Shown: positions 3,490 to 51,400 of the stretch, one piece after another
How positions within the stretch are numbered: the first letter of the stretch is position 1
Layout of the letters: the number at the start of each line of letters is the position of its first letter
Source of the DNA: Owenia fusiformis
Taxonomy: Eukaryota; Annelida; Polychaeta; Sabellida; Oweniidae
NCBI GenBank assembly: GCA_903813345.2
Contig: CAIIXF020000012.1
Coordinates: forward strand, 6,843,615-6,907,614
Reading direction: 5' to 3'
Length of the DNA stretch: 64,000 nt
The notes under the pieces: model-generated
Told to the model about the DNA's origin: nothing
What the model saw: only the letters and a program-made list of their open reading frames with translations
Databases searched by the model: none
Position numbers and translations under genes: made by a program

Positions 3490-6400
3490 CTGAAACATAA
3501 TACATTGACTTAATAAAACATTGACATTGAAAATTTTAAATCACATCAAATACTCCACTAAAAAGTGCAAAACACTTGTTTTTAACACCATTGTGAAGAT
3601 TGAATAAAGGACACACTATTTCAATACCTAGAAAAAGCAACTCTATGGAGTAGCAATCCCATCAAACAAAACATATTTTGATAATTAGTGGTCATCTTGA
3701 AAATTTCTTCTTGAACGTAGCATATCAGCTGCCAATTTCTTCTTGAGAAGAGCTCCTTTGTCCCTTAAAATTTGTTCCATATCCGTCCACTGGTATTCGC
3801 GTTATTAAAGATTTTGTTCTTTTACAAAAAAATGATGGGCATTTTGAAATTCAACCGCCATCTTGAAAATGTCTTCTTTAGAAGGGCTCCTTTAGGCATC
3901 TGCTGGTATTTGAATTATAAAAGATTATGATTTTTAGGAAAAATGGCAGCCATTTTTAAATTCCACTGCCATCTTGAAAATTCTTTCTGGAACTGAACTG
4001 CTGTGTCCCTAGGCATCAGTATATAAAGTTTGAACCAAATCATTTCACTGGTATATGAGTTATCAAAGATTATGTTTTTTACAAAAAATCCAGGCTATTT
4101 GAAACTCAGTGGCCATCTTGAAAATCTCTTTATGGGCAAAGCTCCTTCTTTGTCGCTAGGCATCAGCATATAAAATTTGAACCAATTACATTTTCTACGA
4201 AAAATGGTGGCCATTGTGAATTGAGTGGCCATATTGAAAATTCTTTCTCGAGCAGAGGTCCTATTCTCACACGGTATCTTTCTGTAAAATTTGAACTAAA
4301 TCTGTCAATCGGTATTTGAGTTATCATCCAGACCTACGTACAGACAAATTGACTGACAGACAGGTTTTCTATATCCCTCAAACTTTATTCAACCTCTCGA
4401 ACTTCATTCGATGGGATCAATATAACCATGCCATACACTGCTATGTCTACCAAACTAAATTGTCAATAATATTTATCTATAATGTATTGTTTAATGTATT
4501 GTTGTTTGAATCACAATTTTAGATAAACATGAACAAAGTTCACCATGCATTTTTCAGTTTAGGAATATAGTACAATCACAATAACTTTTTAATTTTCATT
4601 TTTTAGCGTTTACAAGTCGTTCAATAGGTGCAAGTAACAAGTTGGTACTGATCCAGATTTAAACAATTAAAAATTGTTTCCAAATTTAGGTAATAATCTT
4701 CCTTGAGGGCTGTATCATAAATCTCTGATTCAGGAATTGGTTTACAATATAGGTGTATAGTTCATGTAGATGGTATTATTAAAGGAACTGATTGGCTCTT
4801 TTTCATGATCTAAACCTTAAAACACTTATGATATCACATGACATTCAAGGTATACTGCAAAGTACGTAAGTAGGTTAAGACAAGTAGTGAACAAAGACGT
4901 GAAAATAAATATGGCAATGTCTAAAATGGATCTAGGTCCTCTGAAGGACACAGTGAACTGTTCGATCTGTATGGAGACATTAGATGATCCCAGATCTCTG
5001 CCGTGCATGCATATCTTTTGCAGAAAATGTATTCAGGGTATAATGGACAGATATAGGAGGAACTTCCCATGTCCTATCTGCCGGGAAAGATGCCCGATAT
5101 CCAATCAAGGGGCTGCTGGGTTGAAGGTGAACTGTTTTGTAAATTCAGTTTTGGATGCAATGAAGGGGCTCAAAGTAGCAGACACAACTTGGAACTGTGA
5201 TATCTGCTATCAAGATGGGAAATCCATTCGTGCTGTGTCGCAATGTATAGAGTGTAATGAGAAGCTGTGCCAACTTTGTGGACATGTGCATAAACGGTCT
5301 CGTTTATCAAAGTCTCACCTCATACTTGACCTTACAGGTGACAGGTCCCTCGATGCAAAAGCTGCTATCAGTATGCTATCACAACGCACTCTCTACTGCC
5401 AAGAGCATTATAATGAGCCATTAAAATATTTCTGTAAGGATGACCAGCATCTTATCTGTCAAGACTGCTTTGCTTTCAACCACCAAGGCCATGAATTAGA
5501 AAACATTGAGAAAACAGCCAGAGTGAGCAAAGAGAATCTCAGCTCTGTCATTGACTTAGGAAAACAGAGGTTATACAAGTACATGGAAGGCATAAAAACT
5601 GGTTATACAGAGAAGGACAGCATTCAGAAAAATATTGATAATTCAATGACGAAGTTGGATGATGAGCAAAAAGAGCTGCATGCTGAAGTTGATGCCCATA
5701 TTAATGCAATGAAGGCCAAAGTAAATAACATTGGTGGTGATGCAATGAACAATATCAAGGCTCAAATCACTGAACTTGAGAATGAGAAAAAAGCAATTGA
5801 TGACACTGTACTACAGCTAGAAATACTGAGTCAGCATGGTCACACTGGTGATATTGTCTTCATGGTGCCAGAAATCAACAGCAAGAAAGATGCATGGTCT
5901 ACTGAACCTCATGTCAAAATAAACCATCAGGACAGAGTTAGGGTTGAACCAAGTCAAATAAAACATCAAAATCAAATCACATTTGGTTCAGTTAATGCTG
6001 CCTCGGATCAAGTCAAAATGAGTGCATTTGAATCATTTCTTTTAACTCCAATAGCAGCTGGTTTTGCAGCAGCAGCAGTTGGTTCTGCATTATTTGGCAA
6101 GCCCAAAGCAGATGAGGAAGATTAGCTTAATATTCTACTATTCTTCATATAAAGTATTGAAAAGCAACACTGTTGCTTTAAAACATCGGAATAGTTCACT
6201 TTTCTAGCATTTTATTAGGGATAACCCCTTTTGAATATGGTCAATAATTATTGGGATACTATTCATGCCTATATTATGAATTGGCTATCAGAGAGGTTTC
6301 GAATAACTTTTTATACCTAAAACGTATCCACAACCACATCTTGTTTTAATTGAACTGCTACCTATAAATCTGGTGAATGTGTTAGGGATTTTAGATATGT

Positions 6401-9400
6401 TGAGCTATAAACATTGTGTGAAACCTCTCTATTATTTTATTGTTTCTGCTTAGCGCTTATCATTGAATATTTTAAATGTGGTGTAGAATTTAAACCAGAA
6501 ATGAGTTAATTACATGATATCATAATATCTACTCGTACATATCACTTCATAATATATGAAAAGATGTCTCTGATACAATGCAGCAATTTTATGAAATAAA
6601 TAATATAAATGTTGATTGTTTATTTTGTTTGTTTGTTTGATACCAAAATGAATTGCATTGCTATAGCTCTGACAAGCTTGTCTCCACATACCCACAGCAC
6701 AATACAGTAAAATAATAATTAGAAAAATATCTTCTTGAGCAAGCCTCCTTTGTCCCTAGGTTACAGCATATAAAATTCAAACCAAATCTGTCCACCGCTA
6801 TCTAAATTATCAAATATTACGTTTTTGCCCAAAAATGGTGGCCATTTTGAATTGAGGGGCCTTATTGAAAATTCCTTCTTGAGCAGAGGTTCTACACACA
6901 TAAGGTATTAGCCTATTAAATTTAAATCAAATCAGTTAACCAGTATTTGAGTCTGGAGAAACAGACAAACAAACACACTAACAGACAGCTTCTCTATATC
7001 CCTCTCGAACTTTGCTCGGTGGGATAATTATATAAAATGTAACATGCCACTTAAATCTTATAGCATATTGAATAAATTTTGCACCATAAGAGACATCATC
7101 GTGACATCACTTAGGGTGCAAATTTTTGGGGAAAATTAAAATAAAAATTTCTGTGCCAACCTTTTCTAAATATGCTAAACTTTCAAAATAAACCAATGTT
7201 CATTGTCTAACTAGGTTGAAAGAAGAATGGAACTGGAATGGAATAGGTTTGTATTGTATTAGTAGAAAATGATGAAATTGACAGAATAAACATCTTGATG
7301 GTTAGCCTTTTTGTGTTAAGTATACTGTAGGTTGTTGGATCCACAATTGTTGGTCTAAAACCATACAATTAGGATGTTCTAGAGATTAATGGTATCTTCA
7401 GTTGGCAAGGATATCCATCTGTTGAAAATGGTGACAGTATAAATAGTATACAGTGTTGCATTACAAAAAGTTACTATACAGTTGCTCGTAAGATCCACAT
7501 GATTCCTGACCAAGACCAACCTATCAGTTGCTCTAACCAAGTTTGCAGTTGACAGACTAGTGGTCTATTAAACTGATTAGAAAAATACATAGCGAAGAAA
7601 AACAACAAAATGGAACAACATGAGACACCATGGAATATCTGTAGCAGACTCTTGCGTTAATATCATCAATTTATACAAAGTGAAAAAAATCATCAATCTT
7701 CCTTTCTCTCTCTCTCTCTCTCCTTCTACAGTAAACAACATTAATAACCTGCAAAAAATAATATGTGAAAATAAAGATTGATTTATAAAAAAAAGAAAAA
7801 AAAGAAAGGAGTCATAGGGGAGTTTTCTGTATTGATGTTGAACAGAAATAACTTAAAACCAGAATCCTATCGACAGAGGTTTTAAAACGTGCCACTATTG
7901 TTGATGGATGGACGCATGCACGCATGGACAGACAGACGGACAAGTGAGTGATTGCAAAAGCTCACCATGTGAGCATGACTAAAGTTAACATGACTAAAAA
8001 ACTTTGACTTACTAAAATATACATTTTGCACTTATTTTCAAAGTATTTACATACTGTATGGATTCCTGAGAAACTATACATGAGAAATGGGATCTTCTAT
8101 GCTTGATCCCCGGGTGCTTGATGTAGACTTAGTCTTTGAATAGACACTGACTTAGTATCATTCTTGTCATTTTTACACTTTGACTTTAATTAGCTCTAGA
8201 ACTTACAATTCTAGGCTCAGTTTCAATTCTAAAAAAAAACTGGGAAAGGGGGTGGGGGGGGGGGGGCGGTCCCTTCAGACGCCAATGAAATAAAACACTT
8301 TTTTATGGTTTCTTGTTTTTGAAATATCAAAATAACCCTGAAAACTGAATTTTTATTCACTTCCATTTTGTTATTGTCTCGTATACCATTATTCTGCCCA
8401 TCTAATTATAAAAAATATGACTCATGTTCCATTTTGACTGATAAGGTACTGGATGAGCTTGGTCCATGTTTTTGCTTACAGCATTGCATTTTTCTAATGC
8501 AAGTCAATTATGTGAAGTATATCATTTCTCACTGATTTTGAAAATAATAAGTTTTTCAGCATCAGCGAATTATTGCCATTTATACCCCCCCCCCCTGGCT
8601 ACTTTTATGAGGGGGTACTATGATAATCATCCATAATTTCTGTTATATACCTTCAATCACATTGTTGTTATGACAAGTTTGATCATGACTGGTCAAGTGG
8701 TTGCCATAACAACACAACATAAGTGCGAAAATTGTAAATATTTTGGATAAATCCACCAGATCTTTAAAAGGTACATGACAAAGGTAAAAAGGCTATAACA
8801 GGGTCAGTAATTGATTAAGTTCACTGGATGAACTTTTTTGGTTACAAATAATGTCAAATCTGCATTTTTTGTTTGTACTACATGTATGGTGTCATGATTT
8901 ATGATCTCCTTTGTAAATTACCTGCAAAGTATACTAGATATAGTAAGAGATCGATCGTCTATATATACCAATACATCGTCCCATTATTTCCACATTGTTA
9001 TAAATTATTAGTCACATGATCTTCAGTTGGCAAGGATATCCATCTGTTGAAAATGGTGACAGTAAAAATAGTATACAGTGTTGCATTACAAAAAGTTACT
9101 ATACAGTTGCTCGTAAGATCCACATGATTCCTGACCAAGACCAACCTATCAGTTGCTCTAACCAAGTTTGCAGTTGACAGACTAGTGGTCTATTAAACTG
9201 ATTAGAAAAATACATAGCGAAGAAAAACAACAAAATGGAACAACATGAGACACCATGGAATATCTGTAGCAGACTCTTGCGTTAATATCATCAATTTATA
9301 CAAAGTGAAAAAAATCATCAATCTTCCTTTCTCTCTCTCTCTCTCTCCTTCTACAGTAAACAACATTAATAACCTGCAAAAAATAATATGTGAAAATAAA

Positions 9401-12400
9401 GATTGATTTATAAAAAAAAGAAAAAAAAGAAAGGAGTCATAGGGGAGTTTTCTGTATTGATGTTGAACAGAAATAACTTAAAACAAGAATCCTATCGACA
9501 GAGGTTTTAAAACGTGCCACTATTGTTGATGGATGGACGCATGCACGCACGGACAGACAGACGGACAAGTGAGTGATTGCAAAAGCTCACCATGTGAGCA
9601 TGACTAAAGTTAACATGACTAAAAAACTTTGACTTACTAAAATATACATTTTGCACTTATTTTCAAAGTATTTACATACTGTATGGATTCCTGAGAAACT
9701 ATACATGAGAAATGGGATCTTCTATGCTTGATCCCCGGGTGCTTGATGTAGACTTAGTCTTTGAATAGACACTGACATAGTATCATTCTTGTCATTTTTA
9801 CACTTTGACTTTAATTAGCTCTAGAACTTACAATTCTAGGCTCAGTTTCAATTCTAAAAAAAAACTGGGAAAGGGGGTGGGGGGGGGGCGGTCCCTTCAG
9901 ACGCCAATGAAATAAAACACTTTTTTATGGTTTCTTGTTTTTGAAATATCAAAATAACCCTGAAAACTGAATTTTTATTCACTTCCATTTTGTTATTGTC
10001 TCGTATACCATTATTCTGCCCATCTAATTATAAAAAATATGACTCATGTTCCATTTTGACTGATAAGGTACTGGATGAGCTTGGTCCATGTTTTTGCTTA
10101 CAGCATTGCATTTTTCTAATGCAAGTCAATTATGTGAAGTATATCATTTCTCACTGATTTTGAAAATAATAAGTTTTTCAGCATCAGCGAATTATTGCCA
10201 TTTATACCCCCCCTGGCTACTTTTATGAGGGGGTACTATGATAATCATCCATAATTTCTGTTATATACCTTCAATCACATTGTTGTTATGACAAGTTTGA
10301 TCATGACTGGTCAAGTGGTTGCCATAACAACACAACATAAGTGCGAAAATTGTAAATATTTTGGATAAATCCACCAGATCTTTAAAAGGTACATGACAAA
10401 GGTAAAAAGGCTATAACAGGGTCAGTAATTGATTAAGTTCACTGGATGAACTTTTTTGGTTACAAATAATGTCAAATCTGCATTTTTTGTTTGTACTACA
10501 TGTATGGTGTCATGATTTATGATCTCCTTTGTAAATTACCTGCAAAGTATACTAGATATAGTAAGAGATCGATCGTCTATATATACCAATACATCGTCCC
10601 ATTATTTCCACATTGTTATAAATTATTAGTCACATGATCAAAATTATGTATCTGATTGGCTCTGCTGCCTACCCAAACAGATATGACAATGTGGGCCTAA
10701 ACTTTTTTTCTTCAATTTGCACTTATAACAACGTGGCACTGGATATCTCCAAAAGGAGATGAGATCCATTGAAACTGACCTCAGAAAAATCCTCGTAAAA
10801 ATTGAGAAAGATAGTATACTTATCTCAAAACCTGTAAAAAGTGAGTTATAACAATGTGGAAATAATGGGACGATGTATTGGTATATATAGGGGTGTAAGG
10901 TCTTGTATTTTGATATTTTTAGACTCGTCCATTTTTCCAAATTAGGGGTATAAGCATTAGTCATGGAATAGGTTGGATTGTATGTAATCACTACTGTATA
11001 ATTGGTTCCTATGCAAACTACAATTTTCCCACCGGAATAGCCTGACTACGGTAAAGTCAGATACCATTGTCACAAATGGCAGACATTACCGTCACTTCAA
11101 CTGTTTAATCACTTGGTCCTCATTTCATGGGATTTTATCGTCGCTAATTCTGTGCATGCATTAAGCTCTTGTGATAATATATCATATGAAATCCCATTTT
11201 TGATCAAATTGGGTCGTGAATCGCCACAATATAGTATCTTCGATATCGTCAATGACAACGAAATCTGAATTTGAGTCATTTAGAAAGACAACGGCATATG
11301 GTAATTAGTGTCCGTTGTCCCGTGTCTCATTTTGATCGGTTAAATTAAAGACTTTATTTCGTAGAAGAACATTATTAACTGAACAATGAGTATTGAGTAG
11401 AGGTGTAACTCGCCAGAAAAATCGAGCTCGAGTTCAACTTGCCAAATATTTCCAAAACTCGAGTAAAACTCGAGTTAATTCATTTTGTCCGGTACGTATT
11501 GTAAACCCGGGTATACAAAACTACTGTCACTTCTAGCGGCAAGTTTCTCTGGTTTAGTCACATCTAAAAGCTGTTTAACACGTTGGGGCCATAAGAAAGT
11601 GTGGTATTTATTGCAGTCATCTCATATTTCAATCAAAAACGATCTGGTATAGACGTCCCCGCATACGGTAAGTACTAGAGATCGCTAGAATCTAACCAAA
11701 CAATATTTTAGAAAACCCAGAAGGGCCCCTCAAATTAATGAATGGTTTTCCCGAATTATCTTCATTATTTACATATTTATACTAAAGACTGCTGGTTATC
11801 GATCTAAAAAGTTAAGACTTTTGATCTTAATTTAATGATAGATCATCTTTTTTGTAAAAGTCGTGTAAACGAAGTGAGAATAAGGGGACCATTTTTATTC
11901 AATTTTAGTGACTACTCCATTATCGCCCGCTTGAGTTCCTTCGATAGTCAATCTGTTTCTGATTTTTCTGGTGTAAATCGTCATTCCACGATATTTGTTG
12001 GACTTTGTGAAGCTTTGAGAGTGTTTTTTAGGTGACGGGCTCTAAATATGGCGATCATTGGTATATTTATTCCCCTAATAAAGTAATGTTGCACGATCTC
12101 CGGGACCCGAATTCGTTTTACATGCTTGAAAGATAGGCAAAACTCGCAAGTTGACTCGAGTTATAGCTAGCTCGCGAGTTGAAATAGATTGCGAGTTTCT
12201 AGAGGACAACTCGAGGCAATGTATAGGCAGCTCTGACAAGCTGTACTCGAGTTACGGACTCGGGAGTTACACCTCTAGTATTGAGACACTTTGATTGTTG
12301 TTCCAAAGGAATTTAGTCTAGGTGCTCTATTAAACATACAGTTCATGAAAATCTAATTGAAGCGACGGTTATGTCCGCCATTTGTGACAATGGTATTTGA

Positions 12401-15400: not shown

Positions 15401-18400
15401 TGTATGTTACTAATTCATTTATTCCAACTTACTTTTTCCTCATCTGTGATTGGTTGTCCAATTTCCTCATGCGTAAATGTTGTGTATGCCACTGTGCCAT
15501 CCCATGAGCAGCAGAGCATCCCTGTTCCACTGGGGGTCCTGGAAAAACAAATAGAATTTACCCATAATGCAATATACAATATTAGAGGTTACAGAGGTAT
15601 ACAAGAAGTGACATCCTATGATCTGCTCCGGTTACGTTCCCAGCTCCGGTTACGTTCCTAAGTAATATTTTTAAAACTTTTTTTTTAATTAAACAAATCA
15701 GAGTCGTGTGAATCAGAAATAACAGAATTATTCAATAGTATAAGGACTATTCTGTACTTTTTTCAAAAGTCTATACTTAAATGTTGTAAAAAGTTATAAT
15801 CGAAAAACCATCTTTCGGAGTAAAGTCCGACTGCGCCGATTTCAATAACTTCGTACTTGATCAGAACTGGGTTCCAACAGAATTCCTACAAACTCATGAA
15901 TGAAATAGCCATTGCATGGAATACTTACTTTTGTCAAAATCAAAGTAGAACTCTAGTTAAAAAATATATTGTGCTAAATTATTGCCATTTCTTAGTAAAA
16001 TGTCGTTCTCCGGTACGTTGCCAAAATTATTCGATGGTACCCCGTGAATATCTCAAGAGAAAACAGCACCTGCTTGCTTCAATTCTGGTGAGAACTGGTT
16101 TGAATCTGATCTAAAAAGGTTGTTTCTTACCAGCTTATGTCCATCACTGAGTTCTTAAATAAATCATGTAACACCACTAGAGGGCGCTTCAATGCTGTCA
16201 ACTGAAATTAAAGATTAAAGAATTCGGAATAATTATCATGTTAACATTTTGATCATTCCATGGTGGTATGCATAATTCATACAATCTTTAATTAGAGCAA
16301 TTACTACTCAATAATACTAGGATATTTTGTCATTTAAAAGGAATAAAGAAGGTACTGAGACTGGATTCTACAGCTTTTTTTAACTCTTACGAATCTGGGC
16401 ATTTCTGCATCTAAATCTTCATTCTTCAATAACTAGACTAATTTCTACATATGAAGGCAATGTACCTCAAATGAGTGACAATACCTAAATTGAGGCTATG
16501 AAACTATTAAACTAACCCATATTGAAAGCGACCTGTCTCTGCTACCTATGGCACAACAAGAATATTGCTGAGGACTGCTCGAACCTTTCTTAATCTTCTT
16601 AGCAAAAATCTTGGGATTAAACCGCTGTAATAAAATATATTGATAAAAATATAAAATTGATATAGAACAATCTTTATATGATCTCTAACAATTTACAGTT
16701 AAATGGTCCAATTTCCCCAAAACTCTTAAAAGAGTTGCATCGGATCTATAATCTATAATCGGATCTATAAATTGTATATTAAGCAGGTTGTCGGTGTTAA
16801 ACTGACAAACTGAAGGTGGAAAATATAATTTTGACATTATTTTTTACAAACACAATTTTGAACTTGTATTCAATCATTGAATCTCTAAATATCTACATAA
16901 AGTTTTGAAATCATGAAGTGATGAAAAATACATGAAAATATTAATTGTTTTATGTCTAGAATTAAAATTTGATTTATAATGAACATACTGCGACAGTAAC
17001 AGCTTTTCTATGTCCTACAAAATCCATATTTGTTGCCCAGCCATCTCTTTCTATGATCTGAGCAGTGGGCCCGGAGTTGTTCATTGCATGCGCTGACACT
17101 ACGTAAAAGCCATCAGGGGACCAATCAAGCCTTAACACATGGGTGGTACCTCCTGCCTGAAATATCAAATTCATTTGCCGTTATCTCCCTAGCATTTAAA
17201 CAAGTGAGATCTGCTACACCAAATTCTAAATTTTGAAAAGAGACTTGCATGGGATAATATCAATCATCAATGAAGGAAATTCCAGACATTTACTTACATG
17301 GATGACATTACTTCCTTGTTCTCTAAACTGGGTGTATTTGAACATTTACATTGAAAAGACTAGTCTCTGTTTGGAGAATGAAGTTCATCAGTCTACTGCA
17401 CATTACACCTGCTTTGGACAATTTTGATATTTTTACATATTGTAGATTTAAATATCCTCTTTTGAATATCCAAAACTTAATTTGGGTGATATTTCTATAT
17501 TTTTCATAAAAAAGTATAAGCGCAGTACACTGATGAACTTCTTTCTCCAAATTGAGATTTTTCTTTTATTATATCAGTCTACTGCACATTACACCTGCTT
17601 CAGGCAATTTCGATATTTTTACATCTTGTTGATTTAAATCTCCTCCTTTTGATATTCATTATTTACTTTGGGTGATATTTCTTTATTCTTCATGAAAATA
17701 ATTATAAGCCCAGAAGAGTGTTCTCCAAACCAAGACTCGTACTTTGTAATACGGAAGGACTTTTGAAACTTCTGAATAGCATACCTCTACGAAAGGCTCT
17801 TTAACTACAGTTTCTGACTGCCAGTCCAACGTACGCCAAATACGCAAAGTTCTGTCATCCGACTGAAAGAAAACATCAAGTCAAATTATTTTAAGAATAC
17901 ATGTACATATATGAAGGTCAGGTTTTATATACAAAATAGAGTGACAATGAGTCAAATCAGCAAGTAATAGAGTTAACAAGTTTGTAGTTAGTACTCTAAA
18001 TTGTTTAGAAATACTAGGTTACATTTTTGTAGTTCTATTCAATGAGATGAACTCCATAGAGATCGACTAATTGAATAAGTTTTTTTGTGTTCTCCTTTTC
18101 TGACGTCATATTTTGATTGGATATAGGCTAAATCAAAATTATTTCTAATTTCCAAATTACACTAAAACCTGTATATCCAAACATCTCTCTAATCCAAACA
18201 TCTCTCAACCTGAACACTTTTTCTTGGTCCCAATTTTGTGATCTCCTATTGATTCACATATTAAGAAACACTTTGAAATGTGAACACCTGCTAATACGAA
18301 CACTTTTGACTGGTACCTGTAGTGTTCAAATAAGACAGGGCTTACTTTATTTATAAAAAGGCAAGCGGTTGTAGAGTTAAATTATCTGTCCCCAGTCAGT

Positions 18401-21400
18401 AATCTCCCATTGGCTCACATATTAAGAAACCTTGAAATATGAAAACCTGCTGTTCTGAACACTTTTGACTGGTCCCTGTGGTGTTCAGATAAGACAGTGC
18501 TTACTTTATATATAGAAAGACAAACTCTCGGAAAAAGAGTTCAATTATTATCACCTGTGATGCAATATATTTTCCTACAGGGTCCCATGTCACTCCTTTC
18601 ACCAGTTTTACTGTATTATATAGAAAGACAAGCTTTTGCATAGAGTTCAATTATTATTACCTGTGATGCAATGTATTTTCCTACAGGGTCCCATGTTACT
18701 CCTTTCACCAGTTTTACTGTATTATATACAAAGACAAGCTTTTGCATAGAGTTAAATTATTATCACCTGTGATGCAATGTATTTTCCAACAGGGTCCCAT
18801 GTCACTCCTTTCACCAGTTTTACTGTATTATATATAAAGACAAGCTTTTGCATAGAGTTAGATTATTATTACCTGTGATGCAATGTATTTCCCAACAGGG
18901 TCCCATGTCACTCCTTTCACCAGTTTTACTGTATAATATAGAAAGACAAGCAGTTGCAGAGTTAAATTATTATTACCTGTGATGCAATGTATTTCCCAAC
19001 AGGGTCCCATGTCACTCCTTTCACCAGTTTTACTGTATTATATAGAAAGACAAGCTTTTGCATAGAGTTCAATTATTATTACCTGTGATGCAATGTATTT
19101 TCCTACAGGGTCCCATGTCACTCCTTTCACCAGTTTTACTGTATTATATATAAAGACAAGCTTTTGCATAGAGTTAAATTATTATCACCTGTGATGCAAT
19201 GTATTTCCCAACAGGGTCCCATGTCACTCCTTTCACCAGTTTTACTGTATTATATACAAAGACAAGCTTTTGCATAGAGTTCAATTATTTTTACCTGTGA
19301 TGCAATATATTTTCCTACAGGGTCCCATGTCACTCCTTTCACCAGTTTTACTGTATTATATATAAAGACAAGCTTTTGCATATAGTTCAATTATTATTAC
19401 CTGCGATGCAATGTATTTTCCTACAGGGTCCCATGTCACTCCTTTCACCAGTTTTACTGTATTATATACAAAGACAAGCTTTTGCATAGAGTTCAATTAT
19501 TTTTACCTGTGATGCAATATATTTTCCTACAGGGTCCCATGTCACTCCTTTCACCAGTTTTACTGTATTATATATAAAGACAAGCTTTTGCATATAGTTC
19601 AATTATTATTACCTGCGATGCAATGTATTTTCCTACAGGGTCCCATGTCACTCCTTTCACCAGTTTTACTGTATTATATACAAAGACAAGCTTTTGCATA
19701 GAGTTCAATTATTTTTACCTGTGATGCAATATATTTTCCTACAGGGTCCCATGTTACTCCTTTCACCAGTCCAGTGTGACCCTTCAGAACTGCAACCTGC
19801 TCTATAGCTGCAAATAACATAGTCTTAATAAATATATAACATTTTCTTACAACAAACGTGCAACTTCACAACTTTCGTTGGTGTTCATTTTACAAGGAGA
19901 ATAAATCGGTAATAAATGGCAAAATGGTTAATTGTAAGTAACAAAAGTAGGAATAGGCACAAAGTCAAATAACATGTTTTTAAATAATTGGAGTTTTGGT
20001 TGTTTCAGTTTGAACATGAACCATTTCAAAAAGGTTATACTGTACATGTTAGAAAGGCACGCAATTTAGAAATGTAGGGTTCCCCAACCCCAATGAAAGA
20101 CTAAAAGGCAATTACATAATGGGCCATTTAATTTACATTAACATTTTGGTTCAGTCTCATAGCAAAGGTGGGTTCTTTTAATTTCCTTGTAAAACAAGAT
20201 TACCTTAGGCGAAAAATTGATGATTTTATGCAAACCTTTCCCAATGTCTGCTCATTAAAATGCAATTCAGTCTTTCCGAAATAATGATGCATTTTGCAAT
20301 ACTACTTTAATTCAGACATACCTGGGAACTTTAAGGCATTCCATATGATAATTGAGTTATCAATACTGCATGAAGCTAACCAATTATCTGTTGGGGACCA
20401 TGCTAAGCCAAGAACATCTGAAATAAATCACTGCCCATTTAAATATCAGACTTCTTTTTGTACACTAAGAGTTCACTTAGGAGAGGTATTCACTAACACA
20501 GGTTTTACTGCATGTCCAAGGATAATTCATAATTCATCAAAGACTTTTTAAATACCTCCTGAGTGACCACGTAAAGTTGCAGCGCAGCGCCACTGCTCAG
20601 CATTGACTGTGCTGCCCCCTGTCCCGAATGTAGTTGAAGGTCCAGCATATCTGGAATTGTAAAATAATATCAAAATATGAAATATATTGAATGCAGCTTT
20701 GTATAGATCTTTTATATCTAATGTATCATTGTATCAACATAACTGAAGGATTCTGCTTCGATAACACAACCCCAGCCCTTCTCTCAGAATTTTTAATAGT
20801 TGTTTATGTAAAAAAGCAAAACAGAATCTAAAAAGATATTAATAAACTTGCATCAGTACTTTGTGCATCTCCATTCCCCCCAACCCTCCCAAATAACACA
20901 GTTTTCAACACAAGTATACAGGAACTGATATTGGGAATTGGGGATGTACCATTGACTTAATGAACCCCTTAATCTCCAGTGGTTTAACTTAAATTCCAAC
21001 ACTGTCTTACCTACTGGTCTGCCAGATCATAATAAGTTTATCATCGCCAGCTGAAGCCAGGTATTTGCCATTGTTAGACCATCGTACACAATTCACACAC
21101 GCTGGAATGAAAACATCCTTAGTCAGTCATTGTGAACATGGCATCATACATGTTCGATTTCCTTTCTCAACTAGAGTTTACAAATCAGTGATCTCCCCAT
21201 ATCTTTGTCAACAGGGACCTAAATCCTCATTTTGCCTGTTTTGGTAAAAGTATTTGAGTATTTCATCACTTTTACATTTTGGTAAGGTGGCAAATGATTA
21301 ACCAAGTGGCTATAATGCTGTAAATTGATATTGAACTAATCGCTAATGCTGCAATGGTAATGTTCTGGGGAAATTAGTTCTTTGAACAATCAATTTAATA

Positions 21401-35010: not shown

Positions 35011-36627
35011 ATGGCAAATATGAAAAAAGATGAGGCTGACATTGCTTTAGCATCAACTGTAAAACATAAAAAATTATGTAGCATATGCTTTACAATAATT
35101 CAAAAGACAGCTCGTTCTCATAAAAAATCATCTAAATGTGAGACTTGTCGCAAAGGTTGTTCTAACAATTCAACACTGAGTAAAATTGAAAAAGTTCCTA
35201 CTGAAAAAAAAACTTTTGTATGTAAGTTTTGTGAAAAAACCTTTTCTTCTAAGGCATCATTGGTTGGTCATGAAAAAACTCATGATCATGTTGAAGAAGA
35301 TTTTGTTTGTCCAATCTGCGGCAAATGTTGTGATAGTGCTGGTGGATTGAACAGACATGAGGGAATTCACAAAGAAGAAAAAGTCCCAAGGAGTATCTCA
35401 TGTCAATTTTGTGTCAAAAAATTCGATTCATTTATGGTATTTCAAAGTCATTTAAAAAGTCATCCAACAGTAACATTAAAGACAAAATGTAAGTTTTGCG
35501 ATAAATATTTTCAAAACAATTCAGCGTTAATTATTCATGAAAAAACTCATACTGGTGAAAAACCTTCCATATGCAGATTCTGTTACAAGGCTTTCAGTGA
35601 TGCTCCAACATTGCTAGAGCATGAGAAAAGTCATACTGAAAAATTAAAATGCCTTCATTGTGACATTTCCTTTGACACTCGTGAGCTTTTTATGAAACAC
35701 AACACTTCAAAAATACACGCAACATTAGATCTAAGTGATTTGAAATCAATCAGGCGAAAACCAAAAATAAAATCATTTGGCCAACCAGATCATACTAGGC
35801 CTACTGCATGTACTAACAAATTGTTAATGCAAAGGTTTGAAGATAAAGATTCTATATCTAAATCATCATTTAGTGAATATCCTTTCTTGTGCCATCTTTG
35901 TGGTCAACGATTTATAAACATTTTACTGCTGCAGAATCATCATAAAACTCATAAATTTGTTAAAAAGTTTGAATGTCTCCAATGTAATATTTCATTTGAG
36001 AGTTTATCACTTTTGATGAAACACAATACATCAAAATTACATGCAACTATGGACCTACATAGTATAATTGGGTCTACGTCTCCTGTGGAGAATATGAATG
36101 TTGTTGAAAGGAAAGCTATGAATCAAAACAGAGATGATATTCAAGGACACACCAGTGTCGAATATAATAAGGATGTTGTGAACCAAGAAGAATCCATTGT
36201 AAAGATGGAGCAAACATATGCTACTGAAGTTGAACATGTGGAATGTGATAGAAATGAAGAGCTTGTCGATAGTGGTCATGTTAAAACAAGTAAACAAGAA
36301 GAATCTGGTGTGAAGATGGAGCAAACATATGCTACTGAAGTTGAACATGTGGAGTGTGATAAAAATGAAGAGAATGTCAATAATCGTCATATTAAAACAA
36401 GTGAACAATCTATTGATAGGCAAGTTAAGAGCAATGAGGGTGAACGATACACTGACAGTATCAAAGTTGAGAATGACAATTTTATCAATTCCTATTTACA
36501 GCAAGAAAATAGTGAGAGTGAACAAATGGTTGTTGTCAAACAAGAAAATTTGGACAATAATAGCTTGAATATTGATATAAAAACTGAACTGGATGATCCT
36601 GAATATTTAAATTTTGATGTGAAATGA
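35011..36627 (+). CDS. C2H2 zinc-finger protein with acidic SUMO-motif tail (paralogue 1)
   Basis: A 538-codon single coding exon. An N-terminal Cys-rich segment (CSIC...CETC) precedes eight C2H2 fingers in two blocks. Fingers 1-6 lie at residues about 70-235 (from FVCKFCEKTF to LKCLHCDISF), with one TGEKP linker. Two more lie at about 295-350 and are separated by a basic spacer (FLCHLCGQRF and FECLQCNISF). Fingers ending HNTSKIH or HNTSKLH have longer His spacing. The last 190 residues are acidic and repeated: a block of about 39 residues containing VKMEQTYATEVEHVECD occurs twice. Five psi-K-x-E sites (VKME twice, IKVE, VKQE, IKTE) are SUMO consensus motifs. A DNA-binding transcription factor is likely; the target is unknown. 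A possible 5' non-coding exon starts after the acceptor at 34828. The 3' UTR is interrupted by an inverted-repeat element. Confidence 0.9.
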   Translation: MANMKKDEADIALASTVKHKKLCSICFTIIQKTARSHKKSSKCETCRKGCSNNSTLSKIEKVPTEKKTFVCKFCEKTFSSKASLVGHEKTHDHVEEDFVCPICGKCCDSAGGLNRHEGIHKEEKVPRSISCQFCVKKFDSFMVFQSHLKSHPTVTLKTKCKFCDKYFQNNSALIIHEKTHTGEKPSICRFCYKAFSDAPTLLEHEKSHTEKLKCLHCDISFDTRELFMKHNTSKIHATLDLSDLKSIRRKPKIKSFGQPDHTRPTACTNKLLMQRFEDKDSISKSSFSEYPFLCHLCGQRFINILLLQNHHKTHKFVKKFECLQCNISFESLSLLMKHNTSKLHATMDLHSIIGSTSPVENMNVVERKAMNQNRDDIQGHTSVEYNKDVVNQEESIVKMEQTYATEVEHVECDRNEELVDSGHVKTSKQEESGVKMEQTYATEVEHVECDKNEENVNNRHIKTSEQSIDRQVKSNEGERYTDSIKVENDNFINSYLQQENSESEQMVVVKQENLDNNSLNIDIKTELDDPEYLNFDVK

Positions 36628-39994: not shown

Positions 39995-40207
39995 TTATGG
40001 TGCTGCAACTTGATGTTGTTGATCTAGCAAGACAAAGCTTCAGAACTGATGAGGATCTTCAGTCTCCACAACAAATCTGAATGCTGGATTATCAATATCA
40101 AGAACTGCAATAATTAACAAAGGTCCAGCGACAATCACAAATACATTTTAGACTTGTAAGTATCAAAGGACAAATACTGTGGCAGATGTAAAACTACATG
40201 ACAGGCA
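39995..40207 (+). pseudogene. degenerate copy of GUCD1 terminal exon, now 5' UTR of zinc-finger paralogue 2
   Basis: After the acceptor tatgtatttacag the sequence aligns with the GUCD1 last exon (33308-33417). Both read GCAAGA-AAAGCTT--GAACTGATGA-GA, which in GUCD1 encodes ARKSFGTDED. Here the frame would give ARQSFRTDED and then breaks. A stop follows at ACAAATCTGA. The piece runs on into the leader of the zinc-finger ORF. This indicates a segmental duplication of the GUCD1 3' end that was reused as a leader exon. Confidence 0.6.
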
Positions 40208-41665
40208 ATGGCAAATAAAGCAATGGAAGAAACTGTTTCAGCATCAACTGTGGTACACAAATTTTGTCACAAATGCAAATGTTTAACACCGATTCAAATG
40301 TCAAACTATCATGGAAGCTTTCTGTTTGATGATGATCAATTTGAATGTAAAATCTGTAGTTTTCAACTTCCTACTGAAAAAAAAACTTTTACATGTAAGG
40401 TTTGTGAAGAAGCTTTTCCTAATAAAGCAAGATTGGATTTTCATGAAAAAACTCATGTACGTGCGGTAAATTTGAAATGTTCAATTTGTGGCAAACGTTG
40501 TATTAGTACTGGTGGATTGAAAAGGCATGAGCAAATTCACAGAAAAAAACAAATTCCAAAGAGTTTCACATGTGAGTTTTGTGATAAAAGTTTTAAGAGT
40601 GATTCAGCGTTAATAATTCATGAAAAAACTCATGTACGTGCGGAAGATTTGAAATGTTCAATTTGTGGCAAACGTTGTATTAGTACTGGTGGATTGAAAA
40701 TGCATGAGAAAATTCACAGAAAAAAACAAATTCCAAAGAGTTTCACATGTGAGTTTTGTGGAAAAGTTTGCACTTCAGTTATTGCATTGCAATATCATTT
40801 AAAAAGTCATAGAGAATCATTAATAACTAAATGTAAATTCTGTGATAAATGTTTCACTAGTGATTCAGCGTTAATTATTCATGAAAAAACTCATACTGGT
40901 GAAAGGCCTTCCATATGCAAGTTCTGTTTCAAAGCTTTCAGTAATACTTCCACGTTGCTAGAGCATGAGACAAGTCATACTGCAATATTGAAATGCTTTC
41001 ATTGTAATATTTCCTTTGACAGTCTTGAGCTTTTTATGAAACATAATACTTCAAAAGTACATGCAACATTAAATCTAAGTGATTTGACAACCATCAAGCC
41101 AAAAGCAAAGATAAAGAGAATTACCAACCAAGATCAAGCTAATGACAAATGTTTAATGCAAAAGTTTGAAGGAAACATAAATCAAAACAGAGATGAAATT
41201 CAAGAACACACTAGTGTCGAATATAATAATGATGTTGTGAAACAAGAAGAATCTATTGTTAAGATGGAGCAAACATATGAAGTTGAACATGTGGAATGTG
41301 ATAGAAATGAAGAGCTTGTCGATAGTGGTCATATTAAAACAAATAAACAAGAAGAATCTGGTGTGAAGATGGAGCAAACATATGCCACTGAAGTTGAACA
41401 TGTGGAATGTGATAAAAATGAAGAGCTTGTCAATAATGGGCATATTAAAACAAGTGAACAATCTATTGATAGGCAAGTTAAGAGCAATGAGAGTGAACAA
41501 TACACTGAGGGTATCAAAGTTGAGAATGACAATTTTATCAATTCCTATTCACAGCAAGAAAATAGTAGGAGTGAACAAATGGTTGTTGTCAAACAAGAAA
41601 ATTTGGACAATCATAGCTTGAATATTGATATCAAAACTGAACTAGATGATCCTGATTATTTTTAA
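40208..41665 (+). CDS. C2H2 zinc-finger protein with acidic SUMO-motif tail (paralogue 2)
   Basis: A 485-codon single coding exon, clearly a tandem paralogue of the gene at 35011. The acidic tail is almost identical, including the repeated VKMEQTY block and the end VKQENLD...DIKTELDDP. Eight fingers run from FTCKVCEEAF (residue about 58) to LKCFHCNISF; the spaced finger pair of paralogue 1 is missing. Fingers 2-3 and 4-5 are a recent internal duplication: LKCSICGKRCISTGGLK occurs twice, each followed by RKKQIPKSFTCEFC. Another finger keeps a TGERP linker. The start ATG at 40208 follows a putative 5' exon that begins after the acceptor at 39994 and contains multiple stops. A polyadenylation signal is at 42478-42483. 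A nuclear DNA-binding regulator is inferred. Confidence 0.9.
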   Translation: MANKAMEETVSASTVVHKFCHKCKCLTPIQMSNYHGSFLFDDDQFECKICSFQLPTEKKTFTCKVCEEAFPNKARLDFHEKTHVRAVNLKCSICGKRCISTGGLKRHEQIHRKKQIPKSFTCEFCDKSFKSDSALIIHEKTHVRAEDLKCSICGKRCISTGGLKMHEKIHRKKQIPKSFTCEFCGKVCTSVIALQYHLKSHRESLITKCKFCDKCFTSDSALIIHEKTHTGERPSICKFCFKAFSNTSTLLEHETSHTAILKCFHCNISFDSLELFMKHNTSKVHATLNLSDLTTIKPKAKIKRITNQDQANDKCLMQKFEGNINQNRDEIQEHTSVEYNNDVVKQEESIVKMEQTYEVEHVECDRNEELVDSGHIKTNKQEESGVKMEQTYATEVEHVECDKNEELVNNGHIKTSEQSIDRQVKSNESEQYTEGIKVENDNFINSYSQQENSRSEQMVVVKQENLDNHSLNIDIKTELDDPDYF

Positions 41666-42569
41666 ATGTTGATGTGAAATAGCAAATGAAAGTGAATTGC
41701 TAAGTCAATTACAATGTTTATATAAATTGATTTTATGTGCAAGAAACCTATGACCTGTTGTAATTTGGGAAGCTTTGGAAAATGTCAGTGAATGAAGCTT
41801 CAAAATACAAGAGTTTAATACATTGAAAAGGACTATAGGTGATACAGAATAGTATTCAGGAGAGTGTTTTTTGATAGAAACAGTACGAATTTTGTGTCTA
41901 CATGGTGTTCCAGTGTTTTAGTATGCTAGTGTTTTGTTAACTCTGCACCAAATGTATTCAAATTCTCACAAAATGTACAATGATGTATTGATACTACTCT
42001 TATGTTTCAAAACAATTATAAAATGCAGGCAGAGTTATGGTAACTATTGTAACAAGACATCACAATACGCAAGGCAACTTTTCCAAAAAACGTGATCACA
42101 TTTTTTCTTTTTATATTTTTTGTTGCTTTTTTAAACATACAAATGTAGGGATATCAAATTAAGTACGAAACACGTGTCATTCTAGCAAGTCATTGCATTT
42201 CAACTCGCACATTTTAGTTGTTCAAAATACTAGAAGTCTCATAACTTTCTGCACAGAATAATGTAATGCCAGTGTCACCATAGTAACTGTAACACTACCT
42301 AAGTTTCATAACTTCTTAGAAACTGAACCGTTTTAAAATTACATTATGTAAAATTTTGGGGCAAATTGAACAAAATGCCAGTCCTGTTACTTTTGGAACA
42401 CTTTGTACATATACAATTAAAACACATATTTTGTTTAAATTTAAAACTGATTTTGTACTGCCTCTGTAAATATTTGCAATAAAAAAATACTTAAAAATGA
42501 GATTTTGTGTGTTTAAAGTTCCAAATGCATATGTTGGGGTATATTTTGGGCTCCATTATACATTTAACT

Positions 42570-45482: not shown

Positions 45483-48400
45483 TCAGACATCTCCAAGGAC
45501 ACATGTCGAGCATACAGGCTCATCAGCATTTTCTGTTAATTGACATTTTCTCTCAATTTCACCTAAACACAATTTTTTTGTCATAGTTACATCTGTATAC
45601 ATCACACAATATACATACATCACACACAATAAATCACACAATATAAACACATCACACACAATAAATCACACAATATAAATACATCACACACAATAAATCA
45701 CACATGAGCGGTATATTCTTACGTATTTATAAGAATATCACACTTATGGGCATATAGAGCTGCGCAATGAATGATGATATAATCAAACGCTTCATACGTT
45801 ATACTTTATACAGGAATAATAAACATGCAATAATAAGTTGCAAAATCTCTGTTTATCTACGTTAAAATGTTTCTTTACCTTGTTGACCACACAATGCAGG
45901 AATATGGAAACCACTAAGCATGTTGGTTCCCAGGAATTTCAGACCAACTTCCTCTTGTACAAATATAGTACTGCAAGCAATATCATTTGATGCAACACTT
46001 TCCAACTCATAAGCCAATGGGGATTTTCCACCATCTCTTCCTTTACCGGAGTGCTCAAGACCTATACAAGTGATAAAATATATGTTAAGGTTGGGCCAAA
46101 ATGTTGATCTGAACTAAGGTTACTCAGTCATTTAGCATGATTGTAAAGTCATATTTAATAAAATTAAATCTTTTCAATGTTCATTCATTCTCAATGTTTC
46201 CATGATCCATTCCAAATGGTCATCATTTTTGTATATTATTACAAAACAAGTCTAAAATACCAGCCTCATTGCAGCATTTTAAGCATGTTTTGTAAAATGG
46301 CCATTGGGAATAGACCAATAAAACTTGGTAGATTGAAAAAACACCCTGTAAAAATATGTATTATACTACACGTAGATGTTTATTTTAAAAACAAATATTA
46401 GTACAAAAGCATGGCTATGTGCAAAACATGTCGAAGTATCTTTAAATGCATGGTTATATGTAAAATAAATGTATATTTAATATTATAAACGGCATTGTTG
46501 TGTAAATAGTAATTTATATTTAATTTGCATGACAATGTCCAAATATTTCAAGGATTTATAAATCCATAAATTTTCTATGAATGAAATGTCCCTTAGTCCT
46601 GGATTGTGATAGTTGAACTTGATGATGGGGAGGGGGCTTTGGAAATTGTTTCTTTTCACATTGAATTATGGTTTGGGATAGTCGGGTTTTGATTTCCATA
46701 TGACTGGTATACACTTTAAGATTTTCTTGCTGTGTTCTGTCCAATTTTGATCCTTTCCTTTTGCTTATATATTCATCTTAATTTACATTCGCAGATAAAA
46801 ATGATTGTGTAATAGAGTATTTCCTTACCAAAGGTAAACCATAGCATCCCATTCAACCATATGTTAATCCCTTTAATATGTTGGGGGATTGTCACAAATA
46901 TTTGACAATTTTCATAAATTGGAATGCTGTGCAATGGGCAGTGGCGTTGAAGTTGCAAAACTGGAGGGTAATGTATCTTTTCATAGACTAAGAGGATATA
47001 AGAATATTACAAAAACTCCTTGTCACCTTTTTCAACCAATGCAATATTTCTATTTGCATTCATCGTGTAAAGTAGATTAGAAATTTCAGATTATTATGTT
47101 TATTAGAATATTGTGACACTCACCGATGGTAATAATTTTTGTTCCCGCCATCTTTATCTCATTGGCTATCTGTATTGTAGGTTCACTGTTTGGATATGTT
47201 TTACCAGGTAGCCACGTTTCTCCATCAGTCATCAATATAATTGCTTTGACAGCATCAGTTCTCCCTTTGAGTAATTGTTGTTGAGCTTTTTGCAAAGCCA
47301 ATGGTGTGTTTGTATACTCTCCTGTTTCAGTGGATATTTTATTCATAGCATCTATGACTGAAGACTTTGACAGGCGTTCAGTCAATTTAACATGAATGAC
47401 CACTTTACGTGTGTATGTCATAACAGTGAATTGGAGACCACAATCATAGTTGATATAGCTGTCATCTAGAAGATCACTGAGGAATTCAGTTATCATTACC
47501 AGGGTATCTGTAGTTAAACTAGTTGATTTATCAAGAACTAGTGCGATGTCCACCTTGCAGCATTCTAAAAACAAAACAAATCATTTTTAAGACATTGTTG
47601 AGAAATAGTAGAAGTGGAATGATCAGCTTAGTTACAGAATTCTAAATTTATTAACTTTGATAAAATGTCAAAAGGCTTTTTTAGGTTGAAAATCACTTCT
47701 AAAAGATTGCAATGATCAGAATGTCACAATGAGATTAAATTCTATTATCATGTTTGCAAAGAGGTCAGACACTTTCAAATATTTTGCCATTCGTGTGAAT
47801 TGATTAAAACTTACTTGAGCATCGTTTGCACATTTCTCTCTCAGTATGTGTGTGTTTCTTACACATTGCATGAAGCTCACCTAAATAATATAAATGATTA
47901 AAATAAGTGTCAATAATGATAAATAAATGCTTAAAACGATTTATTATACCATTTAATGAATTAAGCACAGATCTTCTAAAATATCAAATCTCAAAAACTG
48001 CAATTTAATTTCAATTATTTTGGTGCGACTAATTCATTTTCTTAACAACCAATATTTCAAGGCTTGGATTTTAGGTGCTTTTTTATTTTATAACGATTTA
48101 TTACCATTTAACGAATTTAAGCACAGATCTTCTAAAAATATCAAATCTCAAAAAGTGCAATTTAATTATTTTTGGTGCGACTCATTCATTTTCTTAACAA
48201 GCAATTTTTCAAATTTTGATACTTACAGAAACCAATGTTTAATGAATATATTGAAGTCAATTGATATTTTTAGTTGCACATTATAATATGGATTAAAAGT
48301 GGTATTTGAAGATAAGATTACAGACAAATCGTTGAATAAGAATATAAAACTGTACTTGATTTTCCACAGTGATCATTGATATGGTGATGGAAAAGAACTC

Positions 48401-51400
48401 CGTCCATATCCATATCATCATGCGTTGCTTCTTCAATAACATTACATTCTGTTGGCTCGGTTGCTAAAGAGCCCCATTCTTTTAAAGTTTCCTGGTATGA
48501 TGTTGCATTAGATTGTGGGAGGCCTGTGTGTAATAATAACATTGTTACACTTCACTTTGGTACAAATAGAATTTATATTGAAGATGATTAAATGTTCAAT
48601 ATTACACCAAATATATAGGAATATGAACCGCTGCTCTTCAAGAATGAAAATGTTCAAAAATGACTTGAGGTTTCTCCATTCAAAGGAATATGATTATATA
48701 TTGGTTCAATGGATACAAATTAAAATAAAAATGTCATTTCAAACTAAGTTATTAGAATTTATAATACATATCAATGAGCATAATTATACCTAGCCTAATA
48801 CTATTTGAACTACATACCATAAACAAATATGTGTGTTCCTTCAAGCTTGATTTTATCAGTTTCCCGAATTGTAGTTGGATCATCTGAGTGACCATTGGTT
48901 ACTAGGAGGATCATTTTCCAAACCTCTTCTCTACCCATTTTCAGCTGATTCTGAGCTGTTTTAATTCCTAAGTTGGTGTATCTATATGGTTCCACAGATA
49001 TATTTAGGTTATCAATCACTTCATTTAAATGAACCTTTGACGACTTGTCCTTTAATGCAACTTTGACTTTAGTATTCTCATCACTGTTGTAAGTTAATAT
49101 AGAAAACTGAATACCGCAGGTGTAGTTAATGTTACTTTCTTCAATTATGTGCTTAACAAATTTCCTTCCATGTTCAAAGGATTTCTCAGTCATTCCTTTT
49201 GATGTGTCTATAACAACAGCTATGTCAACATTACAGCATGCTGAAAGGTATAAATGATATGCATTCTAATTATTCTATAATAGATACCACTATACCAAGA
49301 TACCATTATAATTGGTACAGCCTTATAAAGCCACAATAGTCATTGCAATAAAAGTTAAAAAGGTTCGCTACAAAAAAGACACAAAAAGCAAAAATTATTT
49401 GAGATGTCTGTACAAATGAACAAATTGACATTTGGTAAATAATCCATATTTTTTATGTGCTGTAACCAAGCTACAAAATATACAAATAAGAAAACATGAA
49501 TTTCTATCCCATACAATATGTTAAAGTTAATATTCTAACCATTGCAGAAACATGGTTCTACTTCTACTACACTACAATTTGTCTTAAAACTCTGATAAAG
49601 CTCCTGATGGTTGTCAAAGGTATGTTCCCTAAACCTGCATGCTCTTGATCTTTGTTTTCTACCAACTCCACATTCAGAAGTGCACTTTTTACATTTTAGG
49701 GAACACTTTCCCCAGTCTCCCCATGAACTCCAACCTAACAATAATAAAATAAAAGTTTACTTTCAGTACTTTAAACTGGAAGTGTCTGTAATTGAGGTCA
49801 TAAATGACCAAAATTCATTTTTATTCATGATCTGTCACTTACAATTTCAATATTAATTGAAACATAGCTTTTGTATTCTTGAGTATTCAAGAGAATATGT
49901 GAATTTCAAAAAATAGAATGACTCAATTTATTTGCATTGTGCCTTTATTTTTTGGGTTTAACATAACGGAAAATCACCATTGTGTAAACCTCATAAAAAC
50001 AGAATTATTTACTAACTCTTTTGCTAAAAATCCAAATCATGTAACTTGGTACTACAGTGTGGGTAGTAACACTTTCATAGGCATTTTTCACAACACATCT
50101 TTATAATTTATATGAACAGAATTATTTACCAACTGTTTTACTTGCTATCCAATTCATGTAGCTTGGTACTACAGTATGGGTAGTGACAATTTCATTGGCA
50201 TTTTTCACAACACGTTTCACACATTCATCCAAATCTACAGAACTCATGATTCCAAATACAACGAAAAAATCTTTATTTCTAGGTTTGCACATTAGAGGCC
50301 CTCCGCTGTCTCCCTAATATAAAAAATGAGTATTAAAAATAGGATCGTTGGAAATCTTGCATTTTGTTATTAACACTTAAACCCTCAACTAAATAGAAGC
50401 AGCAGCTTTGCCACTGTCCTGCAAGAGGGAGTAAATATTTAATATGTGAGTATAGCCTATTGTCAATGGTATAGGTAGAAGGGTAATTTGATAGCGATAC
50501 TAGAACAGCCAAATTTTATTTAAAATGAATAAATTCTCCGTTGTGTGTAAGTGTTAACGTGTAGAGTATTTCCCATTAAGTCATTCATGCAAAAAGACAA
50601 TGAACTTTCTGAAATAATTATATGTCAAATTATTCTTAATATATAAAATGTTTGCCTATTTCACCTATTTTAAGATCCAGAAATAGTGTGCAAAATGAGG
50701 ACATGTCACTCAATATGAATGTCACATGAAAGATCTGGGAAATAGTCAATCATAAATTCTCCATCTTTAAGTTGACACATAAGTTCTTCACTCTCTTCGA
50801 AAAAAGTCTTGAAATTGACACTTTAGGTATACTTAGCCCAATTGATACCAGTAGTCATATGGGAAAAATTGCTACCAGACAGTCATTAAATAGCCTTTAT
50901 ATAGTTAGTTTTAGTTTAGTTTATTTATTTATTTATAGTGGTCAGTCTTACAATTCATTTAATTACGATTTAATTTAATATCCCAGAAATACATACCTGG
51001 CATGGTGTTCCACCTGCACCACCTGTTGTGTCAACTGTGAATGATGTGCCCCTACTAGGTTTCATAAATACCCTCAACCAGTTAAGATCATCTGACGGCT
51101 TGCCACGACTTTCTAAAATACAAATGACAGTCGTTAATCATAGATACCATGTGATGAAGTGATTTGAGAATGTAAAAACTTTCTAAATTAACAAATATTA
51201 TTATAGATAAAAAAAGTGAATCAAGATGCAAAAACAAATTGCAATACAATTTGAAATACAATGATAATCATACTTGGTGTGGCTCCCCATCCAGCTACCA
51301 TACAGTCTTGATGGATGGCTTCCTCCAGGTGTCTTGCACAGGTGGCTCTACATTGTGCTGCTGCATCACCAGACTTATCAATGGCACAACTGTCATTACA

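Follow-up and report, generated by a model that had tools for sequence, protein, structure and literature searches.

Do the exon-like units that follow exon 6 of the HIRA gene in the annelid Owenia fusiformis serve as alternative exons, or can repeats that are spliced out come to look like exons in use? We addressed this question in a window of 64,000 nucleotides (contig CAIIXF020000012.1), for which a reading of the letters had proposed 11 interchangeable mini-exons behind exon 6, with a non-functional expansion of exon plus intron sequence as the simplest alternative.

Structure of the array

The 5′ part of HIRA lies on the minus strand of the window. A tblastn search with a human HIRA protein sequence as the query placed its exons between about 22.89 kb, where the start methionine lies, and a segment at about 2.9 kb, and the exon boundaries were set by eye at splice dinucleotides. 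Introns 5 and 6 measure 514 and 1856 nt, and no N occurs anywhere in the window sequence. The exons that frame the array are

20322..20417, minus strand, HIRA exon 5; donor CCAG/GTATGT, end phase 1
19719..19807, minus strand, HIRA exon 6; 89 nt, phase 1 to 0, first codon split
17785..17862, minus strand, HIRA exon 7; start phase 0, SDDRTLRIWRTLDWQ

The last 52 nt of exon 6, together with about 54 nt of intron, are repeated 11 extra times directly after the exon, the end of exon 6 itself being copy 0. TRF calls the array at 18536-19770 with a period of 106, 11.7 copies and 94% matches. The exon piece occurs 12 times, always on the minus strand, while 100 shuffles gave a mean expectation of 0.00. 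The copies of the one unit lie head to tail, as in minisatellites and VNTRs, and ten of the 11 spacings between exon pieces equal 106 and one 104. The array and its units are as follows.

18555..19770, minus strand, tandem array of 12 exon pieces (exon 6 and 11 copies) with the intron pieces between them
19613..19668, minus strand, unit 1; AG-bounded 56-nt open piece followed by GT
19507..19562, minus strand, unit 2; AG-bounded open piece and GT
19401..19456, minus strand, unit 3; identical to unit 1 over its full length
19295..19350, minus strand, unit 4; identical to unit 2 over its full length
19189..19244, minus strand, unit 5; AG-bounded open piece and GT
19083..19138, minus strand, unit 6; AG-bounded open piece and GT
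18977..19032, minus strand, unit 7; a 2-bp deletion not shared by the others shortens the next intron piece (104-bp period)
18873..18928, minus strand, unit 8; AG-bounded open piece and GT
18767..18822, minus strand, unit 9; AG-bounded open piece and GT
18661..18716, minus strand, unit 10; AG-bounded open piece and GT
18555..18610, minus strand, unit 11, the last; its donor GTGATA is followed by the unduplicated remainder of intron 6

Each of the 11 extra pieces is 56 nt long, preceded by TACAG and followed by GT. Every unit retains an intact acceptor AG and the four bases TAAA behind it, and CAG/GT is present in all 12 pieces. Placed between exons 5 and 7, each unit gives an open phase 1-to-0 frame with no stop. 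Successive mini-exons are separated by 50 nt, once by 48 nt. Neither the first 37 nt nor the acceptor of exon 6 is represented in the units (56 nt against 89), and in place of exon 6 a unit would supply 2 residues for 13, a net loss of 11. The original prediction thus described the anatomy correctly: its coordinates for the 11 tandem copies with AG, frame and GT are right, but it did not place the gene on the minus strand; the 106-bp unit with a 56-bp piece, the phases shared with the 89-bp exon 6 (11 of 11), the spacing of about 50 bp and the cost of about 11 residues in a WD40 blade were all borne out.

Variation among the copies

All 12 exon pieces encode the same 17 residues. Five exonic columns vary among them, every one at a third codon position and synonymous, an outcome with P = 0.0025 when four transitions and one transversion are placed at random; the original prediction had overlooked this. 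Over units 0-10, the 54 sites of the intron piece include nine substitution columns, besides a 2-bp indel. Nonsynonymous sites differ from the intron (0/38 vs. 9/54; Fisher p = 0.009), with about 6.4 nonsynonymous columns expected if all copies had drifted at the intron pace (38.3 x 9/54), while the synonymous rate of 5/13 is not significantly above that of the intron (p = 0.12).

The synonymous-only variation fits the reading that the 11 units are real alternative mini-exons that replace exon 6 one at a time. That reading also gains from the AG, the open frame and the GT in all 11 units and from the 50-nt gaps, which would hinder splicing from unit to unit. On the other hand, 11 units would yield one identical product, and there is no gain from 11 choices. 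In the unit product, a WD40 repeat would be deprived of its opening GH and outer strand, and the Pfam WD40 score drops from 38.9 bits in the normal protein to 26.5 bits, just below the cut-off of 27, with profile positions 14-38 left. The open frame itself is readily obtained: when random 54-nt stretches of HIRA intron were put before the exon piece, 37.5% supplied an AG in the correct phase with the frame open, giving an in-frame mini-exon, and the matching frame of the units is thus no sign of design.

A pairing search over 17750-20450 returned six inverted pairs, four of which join an 11-nt AU-only site at 18504-18514 with four units. A partner common to several units resembles a docking site, but this one is short, consists of A and U only and is situated in a stretch of intron that is itself homologous to the units; it is the sole shared complement and matches 4 of 11 units. 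Together with the weak acceptors described below, which are unrelated to that of exon 6, the single product, the WD40 loss and the easily obtained frame make alternative mini-exons highly improbable. The proposal of interchangeable mini-exons as in mutually exclusive arrays is accordingly not supported, the copies being 3′ fragments that specify one peptide, and we rejected mutually exclusive exons as the leading reading because of the identical peptides, truncated copies, weak acceptor and WD40 loss.

The array, the identical peptides and the exclusively synonymous variation can be read directly off the sequence, as can a 212-bp dimer pattern that takes in the true exon 6 and points to exchange between it and the copies. 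The unit that holds exon 6 is separated from units 2 and 4 by 1 of 106 columns; units 2 and 4 are identical, and so are units 1 and 3. Across the array, units differ by up to 12 of 106 columns. The four-gamete test is failed by 3 of 36 informative column pairs. Block duplication and exchange of this kind represent the internal turnover found in minisatellites and VNTRs, and the near-identity of exon 6's unit to units 2 and 4, the two identical pairs and the four-gamete failures together indicate that the exchange includes the true exon.

The identical pairs would also fit an assembly or haplotype artefact, in which the real array is shorter or the copies of two haplotypes were placed in series, and a 1.6 kb head-to-tail duplication at 99.3% elsewhere in the window can be cited in its favor. 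However, the joint ATACAG-TAAA-ACTGG occurs 11 times, in units whose differences reach the 12 columns given above, which means that at least a true tandem repeat is present, and the window is free of N. An artefact is very unlikely on this evidence.

Splice signals and their predicted outcome

Splice sites were scored with acceptor and donor matrices built from only 12 HIRA sites each. Unit acceptors score -1.8 to 1.2, as against 2.8 to 12.9 for the 12 real HIRA acceptors (each left out in turn), and of the 483 other AGs across the HIRA span, 95 equal or exceed the best unit acceptor. The acceptor of exon 6, at 2.8, ties for the lowest among the real ones. The extra donors are comparable with the real one: the exon 6 donor scores 6.4 and the 12 other HIRA donors 4.6 to 11.0, and among the extra donors six of 11 score 7.2, two 6.4 and three 3.7.

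Where introns flanking an exon are large, the sites closest across the exon are reported to be preferred (PMC9225289). With long flanking introns, the acceptor of exon 6 and the first donor would thus be favored, and in normal mRNA exon 6's own acceptor would pair with the first of 12 donors, all downstream copies being removed as part of intron 6. The same proximity rule could favor a 56-nt unit, were its acceptor strong. Given the weak exon 6 acceptor and the six extra donors that score above the true one, aberrant splicing is plausible, and low-level aberrant products are to be expected. A unit spliced after exon 6 starts with the codon TAA, as originally noted, and a stop also follows if exon 6 is extended to the next donor or skipped altogether.

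The units could in that case reduce the output of HIRA, either as poison exons or as decoy donors, with the copy number tuning the dose. Inclusion of a unit after exon 6 brings in a premature stop, as a poison exon does, and the TAA after exon 6, like the stop in an extended exon 6, would lead to mRNA decay; the six of 11 extra donors scoring above the true one fit this as well, and the TERT intronic VNTR is described as shifting splicing and decay (PMC11830802). Yet selection for a poison exon would not preserve the coding sense of the piece, and nonsynonymous change is absent; the unit acceptors are also weak. We regard this as unlikely. A related reading would make the array a copy-number-tunable HIRA splicing device, in which identical mini-exons serve as poison exons or decoys, or give a form with an altered WD40 blade, and have kept their coding sense because they are spliced in; this we find quite unlikely. 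If it were true, the dosage of HIRA, a histone chaperone, would depend on repeat copy number.

Simulated arrays without use of the copies

To see whether the lack of amino acid changes proves use of the units, we simulated arrays in which only exon 6 is selected, recording the share of samples with zero nonsynonymous columns at matched intron diversity. With turnover in a single lineage, this share was 0 in 17 of 18 settings and 0.3% in one, several of them having few matching samples; the other 18 single-lineage settings, where all copies are selected, give 100% by construction. At 0-0.3%, a neutral array refreshed by simple turnover alone was rejected as the cause of the synonymous-only pattern. 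A population model with N = 400 and 18 settings gave 0-7.4% without overwriting of exon 6 and 0-7.9% with it, one of the six settings with overwriting having no matching sample. A further population run with 12 settings had no samples in range in nine, and the rest gave 0 (one sample), 96.7% and 96.9%.

The main population model, with 24 settings, let copies and haplotypes exchange sequence at rate c. The share of samples with zero nonsynonymous columns was 0-8.6% at c = 0.02 and 3-60% at c = 0.1; with no use of the copies it reached 35-89% at c = 0.5 and 75-100% at c = 2, the value of 100% resting on five samples. The exchange rates were chosen freely and are not fitted to the exchange rate or population size of the animal, and the agreement is qualitative, as mean synonymous counts at c = 0.5 and 2 range from 0.2 to 2.9 against 5 observed. 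Within the model, frequent exchange with a selected exon is enough to keep copies clean, and translation of the copies is not needed. Combined with exchange that includes the true exon, the simulations imply that the synonymous-only variation is no proof that the units are used.

Overall, the evidence favors the alternative that had been offered as the simplest, in which exon and intron sequence expanded together without function, and we consider it likely that the array is an exon-anchored minisatellite, probably silent, that exchanges sequence with exon 6 and is not a set of alternative exons. The copies would be untranslated, and sequence would move between them and the true exon often enough to keep them coding-clean. 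Amino acid changes would be weeded out in the true exon 6, and copies that would spoil exon 6 by exchange may be weeded out with their haplotypes. Some findings speak against the minisatellite reading: few clean samples arise at low exchange (c = 0.02, 0-8.6%), in the smaller population (N = 400, 0-7.9%) and under single-lineage turnover (0-0.3%), the mean synonymous counts in the high-c simulations (0.2 to 2.9) stay below the five seen, the AG and TAAA are intact in all 11 units, and the exon 6 acceptor is weak (2.8), with six of 11 extra donors at 7.2 vs. 6.4 for the true one.

Origin and neighboring repeats

The array would have arisen by one tandem duplication across the end of exon 6 and the start of intron 6, perhaps via a shared ACTG, and slippage or unequal exchange would then have multiplied the duplicate to 12 copies. 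Read by eye, ACTG appears to be common to the intron (..GTAAGCACTG) and the exon (..ACTGGTGAAAGG) at the junction. The intron piece of the units resembles two segments in the rest of intron 6, 18501-18554 and 18342-18385, to about 80-84%. These segments fall within a repeat that is present twice in that part of the intron:

18227-18364 and 18388-18523, minus strand, the two copies of this repeat; 82.6% alike over 138 bp

Parts of this 138-bp repeat recur near 55.3 kb, where a 17-bp tandem repeat of TGTTCGGATTAGCCAAA (55434-55696, 15.5 copies by TRF) lies beside and within the sequence shared with intron 6.

Several other features were recorded in the window. The regions 7394-9018 and 9019-10639 form the head-to-tail duplication of about 1.6 kb (99.3% identity), a very recent tandem or assembly duplication. 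On the plus strand, 4842-6122 holds a 427-codon ORF with RING and B-box domains, inside the HIRA span on the opposite strand, that looks like a nested intronless TRIM-like gene. The regions 35268-36625 and 40202-41680 are paralogous (81-93% alike), and the latter encodes a C2H2 zinc-finger protein with internal repeats (TRF). At 46000-54000 on the minus strand, two VWA domains and a trypsin-like segment are encoded by exons that apparently belong to one secreted protease-like gene. A tRNA scan found none.

Comparison with known systems

Tandem duplication across an exon-intron boundary is known as a route of intron gain (PMC4974935). The duplication described there and the HIRA array both cross the boundary and carry splice signals, with AGGT in the repeat; the piece duplicated in HIRA spans the boundary and holds AGGT. 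In the case described there, however, one duplication over the start of an exon led to a new spliced intron, whereas in HIRA the end of the exon is present 11 extra times and a new intron is not indicated.

Tandem exon copies are also known as mutually exclusive exons, e.g., in Dscam (PMC6071210, PMC3236188, PMC9013439). Dscam-type clusters share with the HIRA array tandem exon-like units in one gene with matching phases, and the same phase and open frame are found in 11 of 11 units (chance 37.5%). The exons of such clusters are complete, similar in length and each equipped with an acceptor, and their variants encode different foldable versions of a segment; neither applies to the units. Unlike Dscam-type exons, the HIRA copies are truncated, give one identical peptide, have an unrelated acceptor and exchange sequence, and the Dscam study reports no sign of conversion between paralogous exons.

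The TERT VNTR6-1 (PMC11830802) is, like the HIRA array, an intronic tandem repeat able to alter splicing or decay, the effect in HIRA being putative. It is a 38-bp G-quadruplex repeat without exon pieces, whereas the HIRA unit contains half an exon and a donor. In HIRA, a coding exon serves as the anchor of a VNTR-like array. For the terms used, none of the titles and abstract openings listed from an open-licence library describes such an array in HIRA, and related loci were absent from collections of prokaryote and virus contigs, which contain no animals. A PDB search with the exon 5-7 peptide matched 576 WD40 sequences, with no HIRA among the best 60 of the 576.

Implications

If the minisatellite reading is true, HIRA of O. 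fusiformis offers a clean example from nature of a coding exon to which a minisatellite is anchored, where repeats that are probably never translated mimic purifying selection by trading sequence with the true exon. Its twelve near-identical donors behind one acceptor would also let nature's choice of donor be tested for an effect of proximity. The case would then be a warning against inferring, as is usual, that a duplicated exon must be in use when its variation is synonymous only.
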